Assembly: GCF_010731575.1 (NCBI RefSeq)
Contig: NZ_AP022617.1
Location: 1,612,001 to 1,676,000, forward strand
DNA: 64,000 nt
Direction: 5' to 3'
DNA from: Mycolicibacterium monacense
Lineage (GTDB): Bacteria > Actinomycetota > Actinomycetes > Mycobacteriales > Mycobacteriaceae
Shown: positions 15,215 to 22,578 of the stretch, in pieces
Layout: each line of letters begins with the position of its first letter
How positions within the stretch are numbered: the first letter of the stretch is position 1
Position numbers and translations under genes: made by a program
Notes under the pieces: model-generated
Database searches by the model: none
What the model saw: only the letters and a program-made list of their open reading frames with translations
What the model was told of the DNA's origin: nothing

Positions 15215-15574
15215 CTACCGGCAGCAGTTCGGGTCGAGGACTGCGCACAGCGCGAGTAGTGACTCCCGCCGAGGTCGGTGGTAGACATTCATACCGCGGC
15301 GTTCCGACTGGATCAGCCCGGCTCGGCGCAATTGCGAAAGATGATGGCTGACAGTCGATTCCGCAAGGTCAACGGCTGTCGCGAGGTCACGGCTGCATTC
15401 CTCGCCGTCGGAGGAGCTGAACAACAGCGACACCAGCTTCACCCGCACGGGATCGGCCAGCGCCTTGAGCCTCAAGGCGATCTCGAGGGCCGCTTCGTCG
15501 CCGATGGGGCCGGCCGCGACCGGCGAGCAGCAGACCGGTGCGGAGATGTCCACGACGGGCAAGGTCTTCGGCAT
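15215..15574 (-). CDS. ArsR family metal/metalloid-responsive repressor
   Basis: 119-residue ArsR/SmtB winged-helix repressor. RLKALADPVRVKLVSLLFSS opens the DNA-binding domain and DLAESTVSHHLSQLRRAGLI is the recognition helix. Cysteine pairs near both ends (VCCSPV at ~14 and DPNCC at the C-terminus), plus EECSRDLA at the canonical alpha-3 position, suggest thiol ligation of As(III)/Sb(III) or Cd/Pb. The start ATG (15572-15574) gives MPKTLPVVDIS. Divergent from a CadI/ArsI-like gene with a shared ~100-base promoter region, the usual arrangement for self-regulated metal response genes. Confidence 0.9.
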   Translation of the reverse strand: MPKTLPVVDISAPVCCSPVAAGPIGDEAALEIALRLKALADPVRVKLVSLLFSSSDGEECSRDLATAVDLAESTVSHHLSQLRRAGLIQSERRGMNVYHRPRRESLLALCAVLDPNCCR

Positions 15575-15596
15575 GCACACATTCTGCCACACCTTG

Positions 15597-15625
15597 TTGA
15601 CATACATCGAAAAGCGGGTGATTCT
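15597..15625 (+). promoter_or_regulatory. putative cadI promoter/ArsR control region
   Basis: TTGACA (15597-15602) and GATTCT (15620-15625) are spaced by 17 bases. The arsR start is only 22 bases to the left, so an ArsR dimer bound here could control both genes. No clean 12-2-12 palindrome is visible, so the operator itself is uncertain. Confidence 0.45.
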
Positions 15626-15673
15626 GGAGGCGTCAGATGTTCGACATAAGTCACATAGGTTCTGGAGGTCGCC

Positions 15674-16135
15674 ATGTCCCGCGCACAACTCGCTCTCAAC
15701 GTCGATGACCTCGACGAGGCCGTCGCCTTCTACTCGAAACTGTTCGACACCGCGCCGGCGAAGGTGAAGCCGGGCTACGCGAACTTCGCGGTCGCCAACC
15801 CGCCGCTGAAGCTGGTCCTGATCGAGAACCCCGGGCGCGGAGGCACCCTGAATCACCTCGGCGTCGAGGTCGAGGACAGTCAGACGGTCCACGCCGAGAT
15901 CGCCCGCCTCGCCGGCGAGGGGCTGTTCACCGAAGAGGAGATCGGCACCACCTGTTGTTTCGCCACACAGGACAAGGTTTGGGTGACGGGGCCGGCGGGG
16001 GAGAAGTGGGAGGTGTACACGGTGCTGTCCGATTCGGAGACGTTCGGTAGCAACTCGCCGGCGCTCGCCGAGGACGGTGAAGCCGTCGTCTGTTGCAGCA
16101 ACAACGCCGGTACCGCCAGCAGTACGGCTTCGTGA
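15674..16135 (+). CDS. cadI: ArsI/CadI family vicinal-oxygen-chelate protein
   Basis: 153-residue glyoxalase-fold protein of the ArsI/CadI group. LALNVDDLDEAVAFYSKLF is the first betaalphabeta unit; LNHLGVEVEDS supplies a metal-binding His, and WEVYTVLSDS the Glu. The adjacent cysteines in GTTCCFATQDK are the pair that binds trivalent arsenic in ArsI C-As lyase, which demethylates organoarsenicals; M. tuberculosis CadI is cadmium-induced. A second CC lies near the C-terminus (VVCCSNN). GGAGG (15664-15668) is 5 bases before the ATG. No arsenite pump or arsenate reductase is adjacent. ArsI versus CadI activity is unresolved. Confidence 0.85.
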   Translation: MSRAQLALNVDDLDEAVAFYSKLFDTAPAKVKPGYANFAVANPPLKLVLIENPGRGGTLNHLGVEVEDSQTVHAEIARLAGEGLFTEEEIGTTCCFATQDKVWVTGPAGEKWEVYTVLSDSETFGSNSPALAEDGEAVVCCSNNAGTASSTAS

Positions 16136-16262
16136 CGCCGTAGGTGGCTGAGCAACTGAAGCGGTCAACCCGCTGACTCCAGGGGATTCGGCGCACGAAA
16201 AGCGGCGTTCGCCCTCGGGCGCCGAGTCGCGCACCTAGAGTCGGAAAGCCCGTGTCAGCGAA

Positions 16263-17090
16263 ATGATCGGGCCCGACGAATGGGGCTGTCCTGTGAGTTT
16301 GTGGTTGGTCAGCCACCTGCCGTCGTGGCTTCTGTTGCTCGTGCTGATAACGGTCACGAGTGGCACGGCGGTTGCCGTCCAGGCGATTGTCCGCCGCCGG
16401 TTCGCAACTCACCTCAGAAGCGACGAGCACAACGACGTGACGAAGTTCGCCTTCGGGGTCATCGGCTTCGTCTTCGCCTTCTTCATCGGATTCGTGGTGT
16501 CGGCGACCTGGGGTCAGATCAACAGCGCCGACGGCAGGGCGCGCGCCGAAGGGGCGGCAGGCGCTCAGCTCGCCAGAGACCTCCAGGTGTTCGACGAGCC
16601 TGACCGAGACCGGATCCGGCAGAGCCTGTTGGCCTACCATCAGGCCGCGATAACCGAGTGGAACGAAGCCACCGAGGGCAGGTCGTTGCCCGCGGCCGAC
16701 GATGCGCTCAACCGCGTCTATCTCGCATACGAGCAGGTCGAGGCGCGCACCGATGCGCAGAAGGCGCTGCTGTCCGCCTCATTCTCCAACCTCAGCGACA
16801 TGAACAAGGCTCGCTCCGAGCGTGTGCTCCAAGCCCGCACCGACACCGGTCCGCCGTGGTCGCTGTGGGCCGTCATCTTGCTCACGAGCAGTCTGCTCCT
16901 GGGCTGCGCGATCATCTACGGCGTCGAGAGTGCGGCCTCGCACTACACGATGGTTGCCATTTTGGGTGTGCTCGTCGGGGCGCAGTTGTTCTTGGTGTTG
17001 GAGCTGTCGCATCCATTCGTCGGCGAGGTCGCGACGTCCTCCGAGCCGCTGAAACAGGTGGTCCGCGTCCTTCAGTCCAATCCCGGCTAG
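16263..17090 (+). CDS. DUF4239 (bestrophin-like domain) membrane protein
   Basis: 275 residues. Two hydrophobic segments lie near the N-terminus (LPSWLLLLVLITVTSGTAVA and FAFGVIGFVFAFFIGFVVSA) and two near the C-terminus (WAVILLTSSLLLGCAIIYG and MVAILGVLVGAQLFLVLELS), around a soluble helical middle of ~120 residues. This is the DUF4239 layout; the [18 protein letters not shown] stretch after the second helix is conserved in that family. Role unknown, possibly ion conductance by analogy with bestrophins. Start could be ATG 16263 or GTG 16293 nearby. TAGAGT (16236-16241) is a possible -10. Confidence 0.75.
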   Translation: MIGPDEWGCPVSLWLVSHLPSWLLLLVLITVTSGTAVAVQAIVRRRFATHLRSDEHNDVTKFAFGVIGFVFAFFIGFVVSATWGQINSADGRARAEGAAGAQLARDLQVFDEPDRDRIRQSLLAYHQAAITEWNEATEGRSLPAADDALNRVYLAYEQVEARTDAQKALLSASFSNLSDMNKARSERVLQARTDTGPPWSLWAVILLTSSLLLGCAIIYGVESAASHYTMVAILGVLVGAQLFLVLELSHPFVGEVATSSEPLKQVVRVLQSNPG

Positions 17091-17351
17091 ATAGCTGTGG
17101 CCCGCGTGTCGGGCGCATCACCGCATGTGGGTGTGCATTCGGCCATCTGTGTGTCGAGTCGGCGCGCCTCGTTGCTTTTGCGAAGAAGATGCCCTGGTCA
17201 ACTGCGCTGAGCCGCGTCCGGTAACCGAAGCACTTCTCATTCGCAACAGTTCTATAAACGCCAGAATTGTCGCAACGGCCAATTCGCGGAACCGGCATAC
17301 GTTCCCCCCGACGCAAGCGTCAGTAGGAAGCGCACAGAGAACTGAGGGAAC

Positions 17352-20192
17352 ATGTCGCGGACCACGAACCGATTGGGCTTCACCGCCCTCGCTACCGCAG
17401 GGGCCTGCTGGATCGTTCAGCTGTTCAACCCTGCGACTGCGATCGCTGACCCCGGGGCAGTGAGCCCCGGCGTTCCGTGCGTGAACATCATGCAGCAGCT
17501 GCTCACCGTTCCGGGGCGGCTGCCCCAGACGCTGCCGGGAGCGAACTCCGCTCTGACCAACACCGCGCCGCCGTCGGGTCCGATCCCGCCGGCCGGGTCG
17601 ACCAACGGAATCGCCTCTGCGACACCGCCGTCGGTGGGAATTCCACCGGCCGGCTCGCTCAACGGCACCGCCTCTGCGACCCCGCCGTCGGTGGCCATCC
17701 CCCCCGCCGGCTCGCTCAACGGCACCGCCGCCGCGACCCCTCCTCGGCCGCCCGTTCCCAGTGCGCCCGTGACGTCGTCCTCGCAGAGCGTCACTCCGCC
17801 CTCCGGCCCGCTTCCGCCGACCGCCCGTGTCGACACGGCCAGCGGCGCGACACCGCCGGCACCCGGCGCGCCGGGCGTGCCCGCGGCGGGCGCCGGTGGC
17901 GGCGCGGTTCCTCCGGCCCCTGCTGCGCCGGGTGCGCCGGTGGGCGCTTCGGGTGGAGTCGGCGCACCGGCCGCTCCGCCTGCCGTGCCTGCCGGTGTCG
18001 TCGACTCGTCGAGCGGTGTGACGCCGCCTGCGCCCGCAGCCCCGCCGGCCGGCGTCGTTCAGCCTGCGGCCGGTGCGGTACCGCCCGCGCCGCGCGCGGT
18101 GGGTGCCCCGGCTGGTGGTTCGGGCGGAGCGGGAGCTCCTGCTGCGCCTCCGGCTCCGCCTGCGGCTGTGGTTGAGCCCGCCGCCGGTGCGACGCCGCCT
18201 GCTCCTCCGGCCCCGCCCGCGGCGGTGGTCGAGCCGGCCGCCGGTGCGACGCCGCCTGCTCCGCCGGCCCCGCCTGCGGCAGTGGTTGAGCCGGCTTCGG
18301 GAGTGACTCCGCCTGCGCCTCCGGCGCCGGGTGGTCCGGCGGGTGGTTCGGGTGGTGCGGTGACGCCTCCGGGTCCGCCGGCTCCGCCTGCGGCGGTGGT
18401 TGAGCCGGCCGCCGGTGCGACGCCTCCGGGTCCGCCGGCCCCGCCTGCGGCGGTGGTTGAGCCGGCTTCGGGAGTGACTCCGCCTGCGCCTCCGGCTCCG
18501 GGTGGTCCGTCCGTGAGTTCGGTGGAGAACGTGTCGCCTCCGGGTCCGCCGGCTCCGCCTGCGGCCATCGTGGATTCCGCGAGTGGTGCGACGCCGCCTG
18601 CGCCTCCGGCTCCGGGTGGTCCGTCCGTGAGTTCGGTGGAGAACGTGTCGCCGCCGGCTCCGCCGGCTCCGGGTGGTGGTTCGTCGAGCACGGTGGAGCG
18701 GTTCTCGCCGCCGGCCCCGCCTGCACCAGCTGTACCGGCTGCCAATTCCGTTGAGGCCGTTACGCCTCCGGCTCCTCCGGCCCCGGGTGGTCCGTCCGTG
18801 AGTTCGGTGGAGAACGTGTCGCCGCCGGCTCCGCCGGCTCCGGGTGGTGGTTCGTCAAGCACGGTGGAGCGGTTCTCGCCGCCGGCCCCGCCTGCACCAG
18901 CCGTACCGGCTGCCAATTCTGTTGAGGCCGTGACGCCTCCGGCGCCTCCCGCGCCGCCTGCTGCGGTGGTGGAACCTGCTGGCGCGGTGACGCCTCCGGC
19001 GCCTCCTGCGCCGCCTGCTGCGGTGGTGGAGCCTGCTGGTGCGGTGACGCCTCCGGCGCCTCCTGCGCCGCCTGCTGCGGTGGTGGAGCCTGCTGGTGCG
19101 GTGACGCCTCCGGCGCCTCCTGCGCCGCCTGCTGCGGTGGTGGAGCCTGCTGGTGCGGTGACGCCTCCGGCTCCTCCTGCGCCGCCTGCTGCGGTGGTGG
19201 AGCCTGCTGGTGCGGTGACGCCTCCGGCTCCTCCTGCGCCGCCTGCTGCGGTGGTGGAGCCTGCTGCGGGTGCTGTGCCTCCGGCTCCGGCTGGTCCTCC
19301 GGCGGGTGTGGTTGAGCCTGCTGCGGGTGCTGTGCCTCCGGCTCCGGCTGGTCCTCCGGCGGGTGTGGTTGAGCCTGCTGCAGGTGCTGCGCCTGCCGCT
19401 CCGGCTGGTCCCGGCGCACCGGGTGGTGGCTCCGGTGGAGCGGGCGCCCCGCCTGCACCGCCCGCGCCACCGGCCGCCGCGGTCCAGCCCGCCGCCGCTG
19501 CAGTGCCTCCGGCTCCGCCTGCGCCGCCTGCTGCGGTGGTGCAACCCGCCGCCGGGGTCGCTCCGCCTGCACCTCCGGCCCCGCCGGCTGCCGTGGTTCA
19601 GCCTGCTGCCGCTGTTGCGCCGCCTGCGCCGCCTGCACCGCCAGCCGCGGTGGTGGAACCGGCTGCCGCCGTCGCCCCGCCGGCGCCTCCGGCTCCGGGT
19701 GTCCCGGCAGCCAGTTCGGTGCCCGCCGTGACGCCGCCCGCTCCGCCCGCGCCTCCTGGCGGTGGTTCGGCCACGGTGAACGTGGGCACGCCGCCGGCCC
19801 CTCCGGCACCGCCGGCAGGTGGTTCGACTGCGGTGAACATCCCGACGCCTCCGTACCCCGCCGCGCCCGGTGCGTCGGCCAGTGGTTCGGGCGTTACGCC
19901 TCCCGGGGTGTTCCCGCCGCTCGAGGGTGCAGCAGCGGTGTTCGACCGGCTGCTGCCGGGGGCTCCGACGCCCGGTGCGCCGGGTGCCGCGGCCAACGGT
20001 CCGTGGGACTTCATCCCGACGATCCAGGTTCCGCAGATCCCGGGTCTGCCGGTTCCGCTGCCCACGGAGATCGGGCCGCCCAGTGACGGCATCTGCGCCG
20101 GAACCGGTGGGCTGTGGTCGGCAAGCGCCGCTCCCGGGGCCACGCCGGCCACGGCGCCGGCCAGCCCGGTGTCGGACCGTCGCGATTGGTGA
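17352..20192 (+). CDS. secreted Pro/Ala-rich protein with 19-residue tandem repeats
   Basis: 946 residues, family not recognised. Residues 1-32 are a signal peptide (R3/R7, hydrophobic core, cleavage AIA|DPG). A short N-terminal region (33-~60) contains C43. Residues ~60-860 are nearly all Pro, Ala, Val, Gly and Ser in repeats built on PPAPPAPPAAVVEPAGAVT (19 residues, 57 bases); variants carry SSVENVS, SSTVERFS or AANSVEAV at the hinge. The C-terminal ~85 residues are non-repetitive (VFDRLLPGAPT, WDFIPTIQVPQIPGLP) with C915. Those are the only cysteines of the mature chain. The composition predicts an extended, stiff, cell-wall-spanning rod. A perfect hairpin follows, and a sensor kinase gene converges from the other side. 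Confidence 0.85.
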   Translation: MSRTTNRLGFTALATAGACWIVQLFNPATAIADPGAVSPGVPCVNIMQQLLTVPGRLPQTLPGANSALTNTAPPSGPIPPAGSTNGIASATPPSVGIPPAGSLNGTASATPPSVAIPPAGSLNGTAAATPPRPPVPSAPVTSSSQSVTPPSGPLPPTARVDTASGATPPAPGAPGVPAAGAGGGAVPPAPAAPGAPVGASGGVGAPAAPPAVPAGVVDSSSGVTPPAPAAPPAGVVQPAAGAVPPAPRAVGAPAGGSGGAGAPAAPPAPPAAVVEPAAGATPPAPPAPPAAVVEPAAGATPPAPPAPPAAVVEPASGVTPPAPPAPGGPAGGSGGAVTPPGPPAPPAAVVEPAAGATPPGPPAPPAAVVEPASGVTPPAPPAPGGPSVSSVENVSPPGPPAPPAAIVDSASGATPPAPPAPGGPSVSSVENVSPPAPPAPGGGSSSTVERFSPPAPPAPAVPAANSVEAVTPPAPPAPGGPSVSSVENVSPPAPPAPGGGSSSTVERFSPPAPPAPAVPAANSVEAVTPPAPPAPPAAVVEPAGAVTPPAPPAPPAAVVEPAGAVTPPAPPAPPAAVVEPAGAVTPPAPPAPPAAVVEPAGAVTPPAPPAPPAAVVEPAGAVTPPAPPAPPAAVVEPAAGAVPPAPAGPPAGVVEPAAGAVPPAPAGPPAGVVEPAAGAAPAAPAGPGAPGGGSGGAGAPPAPPAPPAAAVQPAAAAVPPAPPAPPAAVVQPAAGVAPPAPPAPPAAVVQPAAAVAPPAPPAPPAAVVEPAAAVAPPAPPAPGVPAASSVPAVTPPAPPAPPGGGSATVNVGTPPAPPAPPAGGSTAVNIPTPPYPAAPGASASGSGVTPPGVFPPLEGAAAVFDRLLPGAPTPGAPGAAANGPWDFIPTIQVPQIPGLPVPLPTEIGPPSDGICAGTGGLWSASAAPGATPATAPASPVSDRRDW
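18621..18962 (+). repeat. 171-bp near-identical tandem duplication (3 x 57 bp)
   Basis: Segments starting at 18621 and 18792 both begin ccgtccgtgagttcggtgga. By eye they differ at four positions over about 147 bases before diverging. The same opening also occurs at 18507, 114 bases (2 x 57) earlier. A higher-order duplication therefore sits on the 57-bp grid of the Pro-rich gene. Confidence 0.85.
18930..19271 (+). repeat. six tandem 57-bp units inside the Pro-rich gene
   Basis: Units begin gtgacgcctccggc at 18930, 18987, 19044, 19101, 19158 and 19215. Each encodes TPPAPPAPPAAVVEPAGAV or a close variant. Neighbouring units are almost identical at the nucleotide level, so copy number is expected to vary between strains and short-read assembly here is at risk of collapse. 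Confidence 0.9.
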
Positions 20193-20218
20193 CTCTGCCC
20201 TAGGGAGAACGCAGTGAT

Positions 20219-20246
20219 CGGGCCCGGCGTGCTCACGCCGGGCCCG
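20219..20246. terminator. bidirectional hairpin terminator
   Basis: CGGGCCCGGCGT (20219-20230) pairs with ACGCCGGGCCCG (20235-20246), a perfect 12-bp stem with a 4-base loop GCTC. It lies between the convergent Pro-rich gene and histidine kinase gene, so it can end both transcripts. Confidence 0.8.
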
Positions 20247-20252
20247 ACGCGT

Positions 20253-21608
20253 TCAACGTGTCGCGGGAAGCCGCAACAACAGCCGCGCTCCGCCCATCGG
20301 ACTGGTCTCCAAAGATGCTGTCCCACCGTGCAATTCGGCCTGTTGCGCGACAAGGGCCAGACCCAGCCCCGAACCGGAGCGCGATGCGGTCGACCCGCGG
20401 GAGAAACGCTCGAAGACCAGCTTGCGCTCCTGCTCGGGCACACCGCTGCCGTTGTCGTCGACTGCTATCTCGACGTCCTCACCGGACCGGATCGCGCTCA
20501 ATCGGATCTGCGTGGCATCGCCGTGCTTGACCGCATTCGCGATGGCGTTGTCGATGACCAGGCGTAGTCCGGCGGGCAGGCCGAGGATGCGCACCGGCGC
20601 CGAGGGCACCAGGGACACGTCCAGGCCGGGGTAGCTCCGCAGCGCATCGTGCGCGGCACGGTCCAACAGTTCGGTGATGTCGACCGGGACGTGGTCCTCG
20701 GCGGTGGTCAGTTCCCCCTGCGCCAACCGTTCGAGCGCGGTCAGCGTCGCCTCGATCCGGGTCTGCGTGCGCACCACGTCGTTGATGACCTCTTTGCGCT
20801 GCTCGTCGGTCATGTCGAGCGTCGACAACACCTCGAGGTTGGTGCGCATCGCCGTCAACGGTGTCCGCAGCTCGTGGGATGCCACCGCGGCGAAGTCGCG
20901 GGCCGACTCCAGCGCCGCCTTGGTCCGCTGTTGCTCCTCGCCGATGCGCGCCAGCATGCCCTCGACCGCCTCGGCGATCTCGGCCGCCTCCCAGACGCCG
21001 CCGACCTGCACCTCTTCGGGTTTGGACTGTGCGTTGATGGCGCGGGCCTGCTGGGCCAACAACCGGAACGGGTTGATCATGATCAGCCACATCACCCAAC
21101 CCACGACCACGGTGCCCGCGATGACGCCGCCGCAGATCAGCACGACCCGCAGATGCAACTGATCGATCCGGCGCTGCGTCTCGGACAGCGGTGAGCCCAG
21201 CGCGATGGTGGCGGGCCCCGCGGCGAAGGTGCGCACCCGGTACTCGACTCCGTCGATCGTGGTGTTGGCGTACCCGATGTCCAATTGCGGCAGCACGATG
21301 TCCTTGGGCACCGACACGGTCACACCGCCGATGCGTGCCGTCCGCACCAACGTCCGGTCGGCGGGCGGATCAGCCGGATCGTCACCGGTGCTCGCCGCGT
21401 TCAACAAGGTCCCGAAATCCCCGAGGCTGGTCACCGAGTCGAGTTGCCGGTCCAATTGGCTGTACTGCTCGTTCGTCACGCCGATCCACACCCAGGTGCC
21501 GAGTGTGAGTACCAGCACGACGACCGACAGCGCAGCCACGATCACGATCGTGCGCAGAGACACGATCGGCATCGGCATGACGCGCCGTAGCCGCTCGTCG
21601 ACGCGCAC
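20253..21608 (-). CDS. PrrB-like sensor histidine kinase, no adjacent response regulator
   Basis: About 451 residues. Topology: an N-terminal membrane helix (IVIVAALSVVVLVLTLGTW), an extracytoplasmic sensor of ~100 residues, a second helix (VVLICGGVIAGTVVVGWVMW), HAMP, the H-box ARDFAAVASHELRTPLTAMR, N-box VIDNAIANAVKHGD, G1 DDNGSGVP, F-box FERFSRG and G2 GSGLGLAL. The kinase core closely resembles M. tuberculosis PrrB, whereas the sensor is divergent. PrrB is normally encoded right after its regulator PrrA; here the upstream gene is a divergent thioesterase, so this kinase is an orphan. GTG 21608 is chosen; ATG 21578 is the main alternative. Confidence 0.88.
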   Translation of the reverse strand: MRVDERLRRVMPMPIVSLRTIVIVAALSVVVLVLTLGTWVWIGVTNEQYSQLDRQLDSVTSLGDFGTLLNAASTGDDPADPPADRTLVRTARIGGVTVSVPKDIVLPQLDIGYANTTIDGVEYRVRTFAAGPATIALGSPLSETQRRIDQLHLRVVLICGGVIAGTVVVGWVMWLIMINPFRLLAQQARAINAQSKPEEVQVGGVWEAAEIAEAVEGMLARIGEEQQRTKAALESARDFAAVASHELRTPLTAMRTNLEVLSTLDMTDEQRKEVINDVVRTQTRIEATLTALERLAQGELTTAEDHVPVDITELLDRAAHDALRSYPGLDVSLVPSAPVRILGLPAGLRLVIDNAIANAVKHGDATQIRLSAIRSGEDVEIAVDDNGSGVPEQERKLVFERFSRGSTASRSGSGLGLALVAQQAELHGGTASLETSPMGGARLLLRLPATR

Positions 21609-21723
21609 TATCGGGCTGGCCGCACGACGCCCGGCGGGCGCGGAGATGTCGCAGCGCTGTCCACGACGCTCATCTTGCCTGACCGGTCCGGCGGGACGCC
21701 GCGGCGTCCGGCATGATGCCCCG

Positions 21724-22578
21724 GTGGTAGCGCGGACACTCTCGGACATCCTGACGACCCTGGACGTCGAACAGATCGCGGATGATGAGTTCCTCGCGAC
21801 GCAGATGGACAACGCGGCGCACCACATCGTCGGCGGGCACATCGCTGCTCAGGCGCTCATGTCGGCGAGCCGGACCGTCCCCGCCGACCGCACCCCGCAC
21901 AGCATGCACGTCTATCTGTTGCGGGCCGGCGACGCGCGCCGACCGGTGCATTTCGAGATCACCCGTCTGCGCGACGGCGGCGTGCTGTCCTCGCGGCGGG
22001 TGCTGGCGCGCCAGGACGACCAGGTGCTGCTCGAAGCGCTCGTATCGTTCACCGCACCGCTGGACAGCTTCGAACACCAGCAGCCGATCCCCGACGTCCC
22101 GGGCCCGGAGTCGCTGCCGTCGGTGCAGGAACAGTTGAGCCCGTACGCGGATGAGCACGGCGGGCACTGGGTGCGCCCGCAGCCGCTGGATCTGCGATAC
22201 GTCGACCCGCCGGCACGCCTGGCACTCGATCGGCCCGACCCGTCGCCGCGCATCAGGCTGTGGTGGCGTCCCGCCGAACCGATGCCCGACGACCCCATCC
22301 TCAACAGCTGCCTGTTGACGTACGTCTCGGGCACCGCGCTGCTGGAGACGGCGATGGTGGTGCGCCGGACGACGCCGCTGACGTCCTTCTCGGCACTGAT
22401 CGACCACGCGGTGTGGTTCCATCGGCCGGCCGACTTCTCGGACTGGGTGCTCTCGGATGCCGTCGCTCCCAGCGGTGTCCACGGTCGCGCCCTGGCCACC
22501 GCCACGATGTACAACCGCACCGGCGCGCTCGTCTGCACCGCCACCCAGGAGATCTACTTCGGCCGCGACCGCCGCTGA
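21724..22578 (+). CDS. tesB: acyl-CoA thioesterase II (TesB type)
   Basis: 284-residue double-hotdog acyl-CoA thioesterase, which hydrolyses acyl-CoA to free acid and CoA. Hotdog 1 contains HIVGGHIAAQALMSASRTVP and the HSMHVYLLRAGDARRPVHFEI strand; hotdog 2 has NSCLLTYVSGTALLETAM and IDHAVWFHRP, where the aspartate (D of IDHAVWFH) belongs to the Asp/Thr/Gln catalytic set of TesB. The GTG (GTG GTA GCG) gives VVARTLSD. Divergent from the sensor kinase and convergent with udgX, whose coding region overlaps its last 25 bases. Confidence 0.93.
   Translation: MVARTLSDILTTLDVEQIADDEFLATQMDNAAHHIVGGHIAAQALMSASRTVPADRTPHSMHVYLLRAGDARRPVHFEITRLRDGGVLSSRRVLARQDDQVLLEALVSFTAPLDSFEHQQPIPDVPGPESLPSVQEQLSPYADEHGGHWVRPQPLDLRYVDPPARLALDRPDPSPRIRLWWRPAEPMPDDPILNSCLLTYVSGTALLETAMVVRRTTPLTSFSALIDHAVWFHRPADFSDWVLSDAVAPSGVHGRALATATMYNRTGALVCTATQEIYFGRDRR

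Follow-up and report, generated by a model that had tools for sequence, protein, structure and literature searches.

Among mycobacterial proteins, PE_PGRS and PPE proteins are long and repetitive, and Pfam includes an Apa model. Apa is described as a Pro/Ala-rich protein that is secreted and mannosylated in M. tuberculosis (PMC7287972), while the exported repetitive protein Erp is described as secreted, with a repeat-rich centre made of PGLTS repeats (PMC2639381). The gene analysed here lies in a window of 64,000 nucleotides (the whole stretch of DNA under analysis) of Mycolicibacterium monacense, whose genome is one 6.04-Mb contig. It starts with ATG and occupies 17352..20192 of the forward strand, stop included, encoding 946 aa with 272 Pro and 236 Ala. 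The protein resembles Apa in being Pro/Ala-rich, but no Pfam family was matched at E<=1 (0 families), so it contains no Apa, PE or PPE domain; an Apa-like or PE/PPE-related identity, which an earlier sequence-only reading had named as an outcome that would refute it, was not found at this threshold. It also differs from PE_PGRS and PPE proteins in that it begins with what looks like a Sec-type signal, and it is set apart from Erp by description, since the repeat of Erp has five residues and that of the window protein 19. Searches against NCBIfam and against solved structures gave no match at E<=1, and Pfam gave none for two more array proteins and one medium-length paralogue. No account of a Pro-rich mycobacterial family with a 19-residue unit turned up in the literature searched.

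A homologous N module was found in short Ala/Pro proteins (hhalign 98.4%, E 1e-14, 73 columns), which by synteny we presume to be Rv1158c-like. These proteins are only 184-225 aa long and have neither a 19-residue array nor the module cysteine; the C module of the window protein had no profile match among them, and the motif IPQVPGMPFPLP was present in L101 alone. The settings differ as well, for the window gene encodes 946 aa at a uvrB-universal stress protein site instead of being a short gene beside an Rv1157c-family gene. For instance, the Rv1158c-like gene of L098 adjoins a gene matching NCBIfam Rv1157c_Cterm (NF050168), and that of L101 is near a mannosyltransferase gene matching NCBIfam PRK13375, presumably PimE. 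Rv1158c-like and Rv1157c-like Ala/Pro genes are adjacent in L098, L100 and L101; a WS/DGAT gene lies near this pair (tested in L098), and another adjoins the medium paralogue L083. Both Rv1157c and Rv1158c appear in a table of genes with changes of 2-fold or more in a perM mutant (PMC4450064), and a peptide of Rv1157c is reported to bear a hexose (PMC7287972); we take both observations as leads only. Rv1158c is also on an isoniazid association list (PMC9363015), and its overexpression is reported to give no survival gain in carbon starvation (PMC10865790). Besides, there are medium Ala/Pro paralogues (L082-L087, L099), which share both end modules and the pair of cysteines with the window protein, but unlike it are Ser/Thr-poor, have open frames of about 330-470 aa and lack the 19-residue grid. 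The sequence-only reading could name no mycobacterial family for this gene, and Pfam and NCBIfam give it no match at E<=1, but the protein is no orphan, as it has a family in the genus and an N module homologous to the Rv1158c-like proteins.

The window protein begins with an export-signal pattern, read from the sequence at residues 1-32 (17352..17447, forward strand, like all parts of the gene), with cleavage read between AIA and DP after residue 32; the signal peptide proposed earlier is thus present as a pattern. A lipoprotein reading was dropped because Cys19, inside this segment, is not conserved across the N-end alignment. The N module follows at residues 33-71 (17448..17564) with the motif SPGVPC..IMQQ, in agreement with the pattern xPGVPCxxIxQ after the signal peptide, and its Cys43 (17478-17480) is invariant in a 19-row alignment. 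Behind the array and a 17-residue step (19845..19895, placed by the repeat register) lies the C module, residues 849-946 (98 residues; 19896..20189), which contains IPGLPVPLP...PSDGIC, GTGGLWSA and the tail DRRDW. It fits the pattern IPGLPVPLPxxIxxPxDLxCxGTxW with a DRRDxW-like tail, the tail differing among clades, and Cys915 (20094-20096) is invariant in alignments of 15 and 21 rows. The C-terminal domain had been taken as unique; instead it is a conserved module common to the relatives. Between the window gene and five orthologues, dN is well below dS at both ends (dS 0.17-0.97 vs dN 0.02-0.19), and judged by these rates both ends are held by purifying selection. A scan for a sigma-70 promoter and a terminator over 17080-20300 found none.

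Between the end modules, lag, unit and profile analyses show a run of 40 units from residue 72 onwards (17565..19844), every one of them 19 residues (57 bp) long, with the consensus TPPAPPAPPAAVVxPAxAV and zero register slips. The estimate of the sequence-only reading that about 800 of the 946 residues are repetitive holds, with 760 residues strictly in register plus the edges. At a lag of 19, residue identity reaches 0.605, compared with 0.25 at the top of 200 shuffles, the leading DNA lags are 57, 171, 114 and 228, and TRF reports period 57 with at best 98% matches (stretch 18930-19266). The unit is bipartite, with Pro chiefly at columns 2, 3, 5, 6, 8 and 9 followed by an Ala/Val/Gly stretch, while Ser/Thr is chiefly found at column 1 (27 of 40 units) and column 15 (17 of 40). 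The hinge variants SVENV, STVERF and ANSVEAV, among units 17-24, are in register with the grid, confirming that they keep the 57-bp period. They belong to a 171-bp block of three units present in two copies, units 19-21 and 22-24 (18591..18932); the differences between corresponding units amount to 4, 1 and 3 nt and to 0 aa. Units 25-29 (18933..19217) are the most similar run by unit comparison and TRF, and the DNA of units 26-28 is identical.

By its sequence, the window gene is a member of an unnamed family with common N and C modules, spread across many mycobacterial species. The search of both ends in mycobacterial genomes, which the sequence-only reading had suggested, found relatives: separate queries hit 37 of 198 genomes of the genus with the C end and 60 of 198 with the N end, and profiles hit 123 of 396 with the C module and 145 of 297 with the N module, counts that take in medium and short array-less relatives and are not counts of arrays. 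In the taxonomic family, the C profile matched 9 of 301 genomes, all in 1 of 31 genera, the genus of the window. In a sample of the order, the N profile matched 17 of 200 genomes, 16 in the window genus and one outside; the latter match (G724:C9:158490-158717, E 4.8e-5) lies in a 452-aa frame and is the sole one outside the genus. One set of 20 loci includes Mycolicibacterium parafortuitum, iranicum, chlorophenolicum, vaccae and pyrenivorans as well as Mycobacterium kyogaense. At 7 of 20 loci analysed for their surroundings the array reaches a contig end, so draft genomes probably give too low a count of the family. In a set of 5.8 billion proteins, neither the C end nor the N end of the full-length protein had a match at E<=1e-3, and a medium paralogue used as query there gave 4 proteins, which carry no Pfam domains. 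The N module had no match in plasmids and phages. In a tree of 32 joined N+C ends, the window protein groups with L062-L065 at 100/100 and the arrays near thrS group together at 100/99, while the deeper forks fit one array origin as well as several.

The array gene sits between uvrB with an MFS transporter gene on one side and UDG, universal stress protein (USP) and uvrA genes on the other. By domain search, its downstream neighbour is a convergent sensor histidine kinase gene (20253..21842, reverse strand), and a histidine kinase also follows the array in each of the 8 close-orthologue genomes whose sequence extends beyond it (L062-L065, L068=L105, L102, L103, L104). The upstream neighbour encodes a bestrophin-like membrane protein (16263..17090, forward strand; domain search); such a gene is also present at L066 and L103 and was not seen at the other loci scanned. 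The interval from the MFS gene to the array gene also holds an ArsI/CadI-family metalloenzyme gene (15674-16135) and, within 15215-16234 of the opposite strand, what reads by eye as an ArsR-like repressor. In the window clade, as in L078-L081, L088, L089 and L093, an array occupies the uvrB-USP-uvrA site; the arrays of L069-L071 are near the stress protein and uvrA genes, and the medium non-grid genes L086 and L087 are located there too, at USP-uvrA or uvrB-USP. A second site, within a few kb of thrS, accounts for 11 of 41 loci; in 6 of these 11 a GAF-domain histidine kinase flanks the opposite side. An MT1671-like mannosyltransferase gene, MT1671 being in our assumption Rv1635c, was found by tblastn near the array at 9 of 41 related loci (L062, L064, L065, L078, L080, L081, L088, L089, L093). 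Rv1635c is reported to attach the initial mannose of the LAM cap (PMC3090144). The copy of L062, the sole one scored, reached 554.7 bits against a family cut-off of 900. All nine loci belong to one syntenic site, with the gene on either side of the array, and so count as one inherited neighbourhood; the gene is absent from the window stretch scanned, and a search of the window genome with the MT1671 family found none, though the same search was silent in 14 of 14 controls. A functional link between the array and this mannosyltransferase was therefore set aside, given a single inherited neighbourhood and no such gene in the window stretch.

The reading we prefer, to which we give about an even chance, is that the protein is exported and serves as an unfolded polyproline strut, possibly O-mannosylated, with a cysteine in each end and with a length altered by unequal exchange in its middle. 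After Sec export and signal cleavage it would become a structural protein of the mycobacterial envelope, in which the N and C modules, with one cysteine each, would flank a Pro/Ala rod that forms an extended polyproline-like chain and not a folded domain. Each unit combines a 9-residue TPPxPPxPP stretch with a 10-residue stretch of Ala, Val, Gly, Ser and Thr. Unequal exchange in the middle would alter the number of units and with it the reach of the chain, while the ends are kept by selection.

The way in which the array changes can be read from its units. Neighbouring units are the most similar, with a mean of 18.6 nt differences at separation 1 and 25.8 at separation 12. In a comparison with the orthologue L103, the best matches of units 1-7 and 34-40 of the window array keep their order, while several of the middle units go back to common sources (17, 19 and 22; 25-29; 20 and 23; 21 and 24), and the window protein and five close orthologues range from 804 to 946 aa. 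This is the pattern that unequal exchange in the middle, with the ends fixed, would give. Growth by such exchange with the unit length kept, as the sequence-only reading proposed, is borne out by the duplicated 171-bp block, the identical units 26-28 and the unit order relative to L103. Single-base codon differences among close unit pairs comprise 435 synonymous and 66 nonsynonymous ones, which are not independent events because the pairs overlap. Units differ from their nearest match by up to 10 of 19 residues, yet there is no indel across the 40 units.

Across the relatives, 21 array proteins were compared at lags of 5 to 100, and 19 of them peak at 19 or 38, the mean shuffled maxima being 0.16-0.25; the exceptions are L094, which prefers lag 18, and L095, which prefers lag 35. 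Among the 25 proteins taken as grid members, 24 have 19 as the leading period (L095 leads at 35). The unit consensus varies by clade, from TPPAPPAPPAAVVxPAxAV in the window protein to TPPAPGxPGAPVVDxGGVV in L069 and TPPGPPxPPAAAGxxAGxA in L090, with a step that stays at 19, and diverged relatives at the uvrB-USP-uvrA site and elsewhere likewise keep the step with altered unit sequences. Profile fits to the 21 arrays cover about 901 unit-lengths with 28 register slips, a count that says little where the fit is poor; for L095, a unit of 18 scores better than 19. The grid is absent from all medium paralogues tested (0 of 6) and from four long members with both end modules (L073, L076, L091, L092; 1009-1096 aa), whose middles are short-period or irregular with leading lags of 5-16 and contain little Ser/Thr, so neither the grid nor Ser/Thr is needed for length. 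These long non-grid relatives, together with the members leaning to 18 or 35 and the rapid turnover of middle units that makes close orthologues vary between 804 and 946 aa, agree with the first alternative, a low-constraint Pro/Ala spacer inherited as filler, in which 19 is merely inherited and unit number and sequence drift, the register being preserved because unequal exchange copies whole units. However, the step is kept across clades with strongly different unit sequences, synonymous changes dominate between close units, and strong divergence of units is accompanied by no indel; we consider this explanation possible, though on the doubtful side.

The preferred strut would carry one cysteine at each end. 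Exactly two cysteines are present in the mature chain, one per end module, in 35 of 35 proteins extracted by pattern; as the extraction demanded both end motifs, the informative part is the absence of a third cysteine. Among four leftover proteins, three also have exactly two mature cysteines and the fourth, L071, is frame-split, which brings the total to 38 of 39 array and medium non-grid proteins read. The array gene of L071 lies in two reading frames, with open frames of 752 and 555 residues. This rule, which extends to the medium members, would suit an envelope clamp, in which the two cysteines would pair within the protein or link it to a second chain, making it a closed loop or a chain link and not a free stalk. 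The short Rv1158c-like relatives speak against it, since they lack the module cysteine and a disulfide is thus not general to the wider superfamily, and we regard the clamp as doubtful.

As for the strut and its possible mannosylation, Ser+Thr per 100 middle residues amounts to 6.8-13.3 in the 25 grid members and 1.8-5.1 in 10 non-grid relatives. Ser/Thr is followed by Pro in 972 of 2288 cases in grid members, compared with 604 expected from shuffles. In the window protein it is followed by Pro in 28 of 84 cases (0.33 vs 0.32 shuffled), which is no excess, and L062, L063, L102, L103 and L095 are at or below the shuffled value, so the enrichment stems mainly from clades other than that of the window. 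The bipartite unit would offer Ser/Thr near proline at regular steps, and these residues are plausible, regularly spaced candidate O-mannosylation sites for a proline-selective protein O-mannosyltransferase. One PMT_4TMC protein scores above the Pfam cut-off in the window genome, and the PMT of M. tuberculosis is reported to favour proline-rich sites (PMC12331936). A genus-specific envelope ruler, that is, a rod locked to a step of 19 residues that its two cysteines close or tether, with one or two mannosylations in each step and a unit number tuned by species in the middle of the gene, seems unlikely to us.

An extended polyproline chain has a length of about 0.31 nm per residue, by which the 760 array residues of the strut would reach about 235 nm when fully extended and some tens of nm as a loose coil, near the scale of the envelope. 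A putative wall-spanning stalk fits this anatomy. AlphaFold gave no fold for the whole protein (mean pLDDT 38) or for the C module (mean pLDDT 51), and such low values from alignments of 8 and 21 sequences are weak evidence of disorder: an absent predicted fold is expected for an unfolded chain, but equally for shallow alignments. The extended length could be enough to pass beyond the envelope, and array length and unit sequence are variable, as might be expected of a surface adhesin or an antigenically variable coat, whose rod would project the C module or display variable hinges; but neither end has a known family or a predicted fold and no link to binding was found, and we hold such a role to be improbable. 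That the open frame arose by chance in repeat DNA rich in GC, or that it is an artefact of assembly, is hardly credible, for although several members also have long antisense frames, the start and the cysteines are conserved, the ends appear to be under purifying selection, and the array, whose absence from long-read assemblies the sequence-only reading had named as a refuting outcome, is open in the single-contig window genome and in further single-contig genomes (e.g. L062, L063, L069, L070, L072), which speaks against an artefact.

In conclusion, one open reading frame leads to a testable and still unnamed family of giant mycobacterial proteins, which are probably exported and match no Pfam or NCBIfam model. 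The family predicts candidate O-mannosylation sites at regular spacing, and its natural series of chain lengths between conserved ends would let the role of proline-rich secreted proteins in the mycobacterial envelope be asked.
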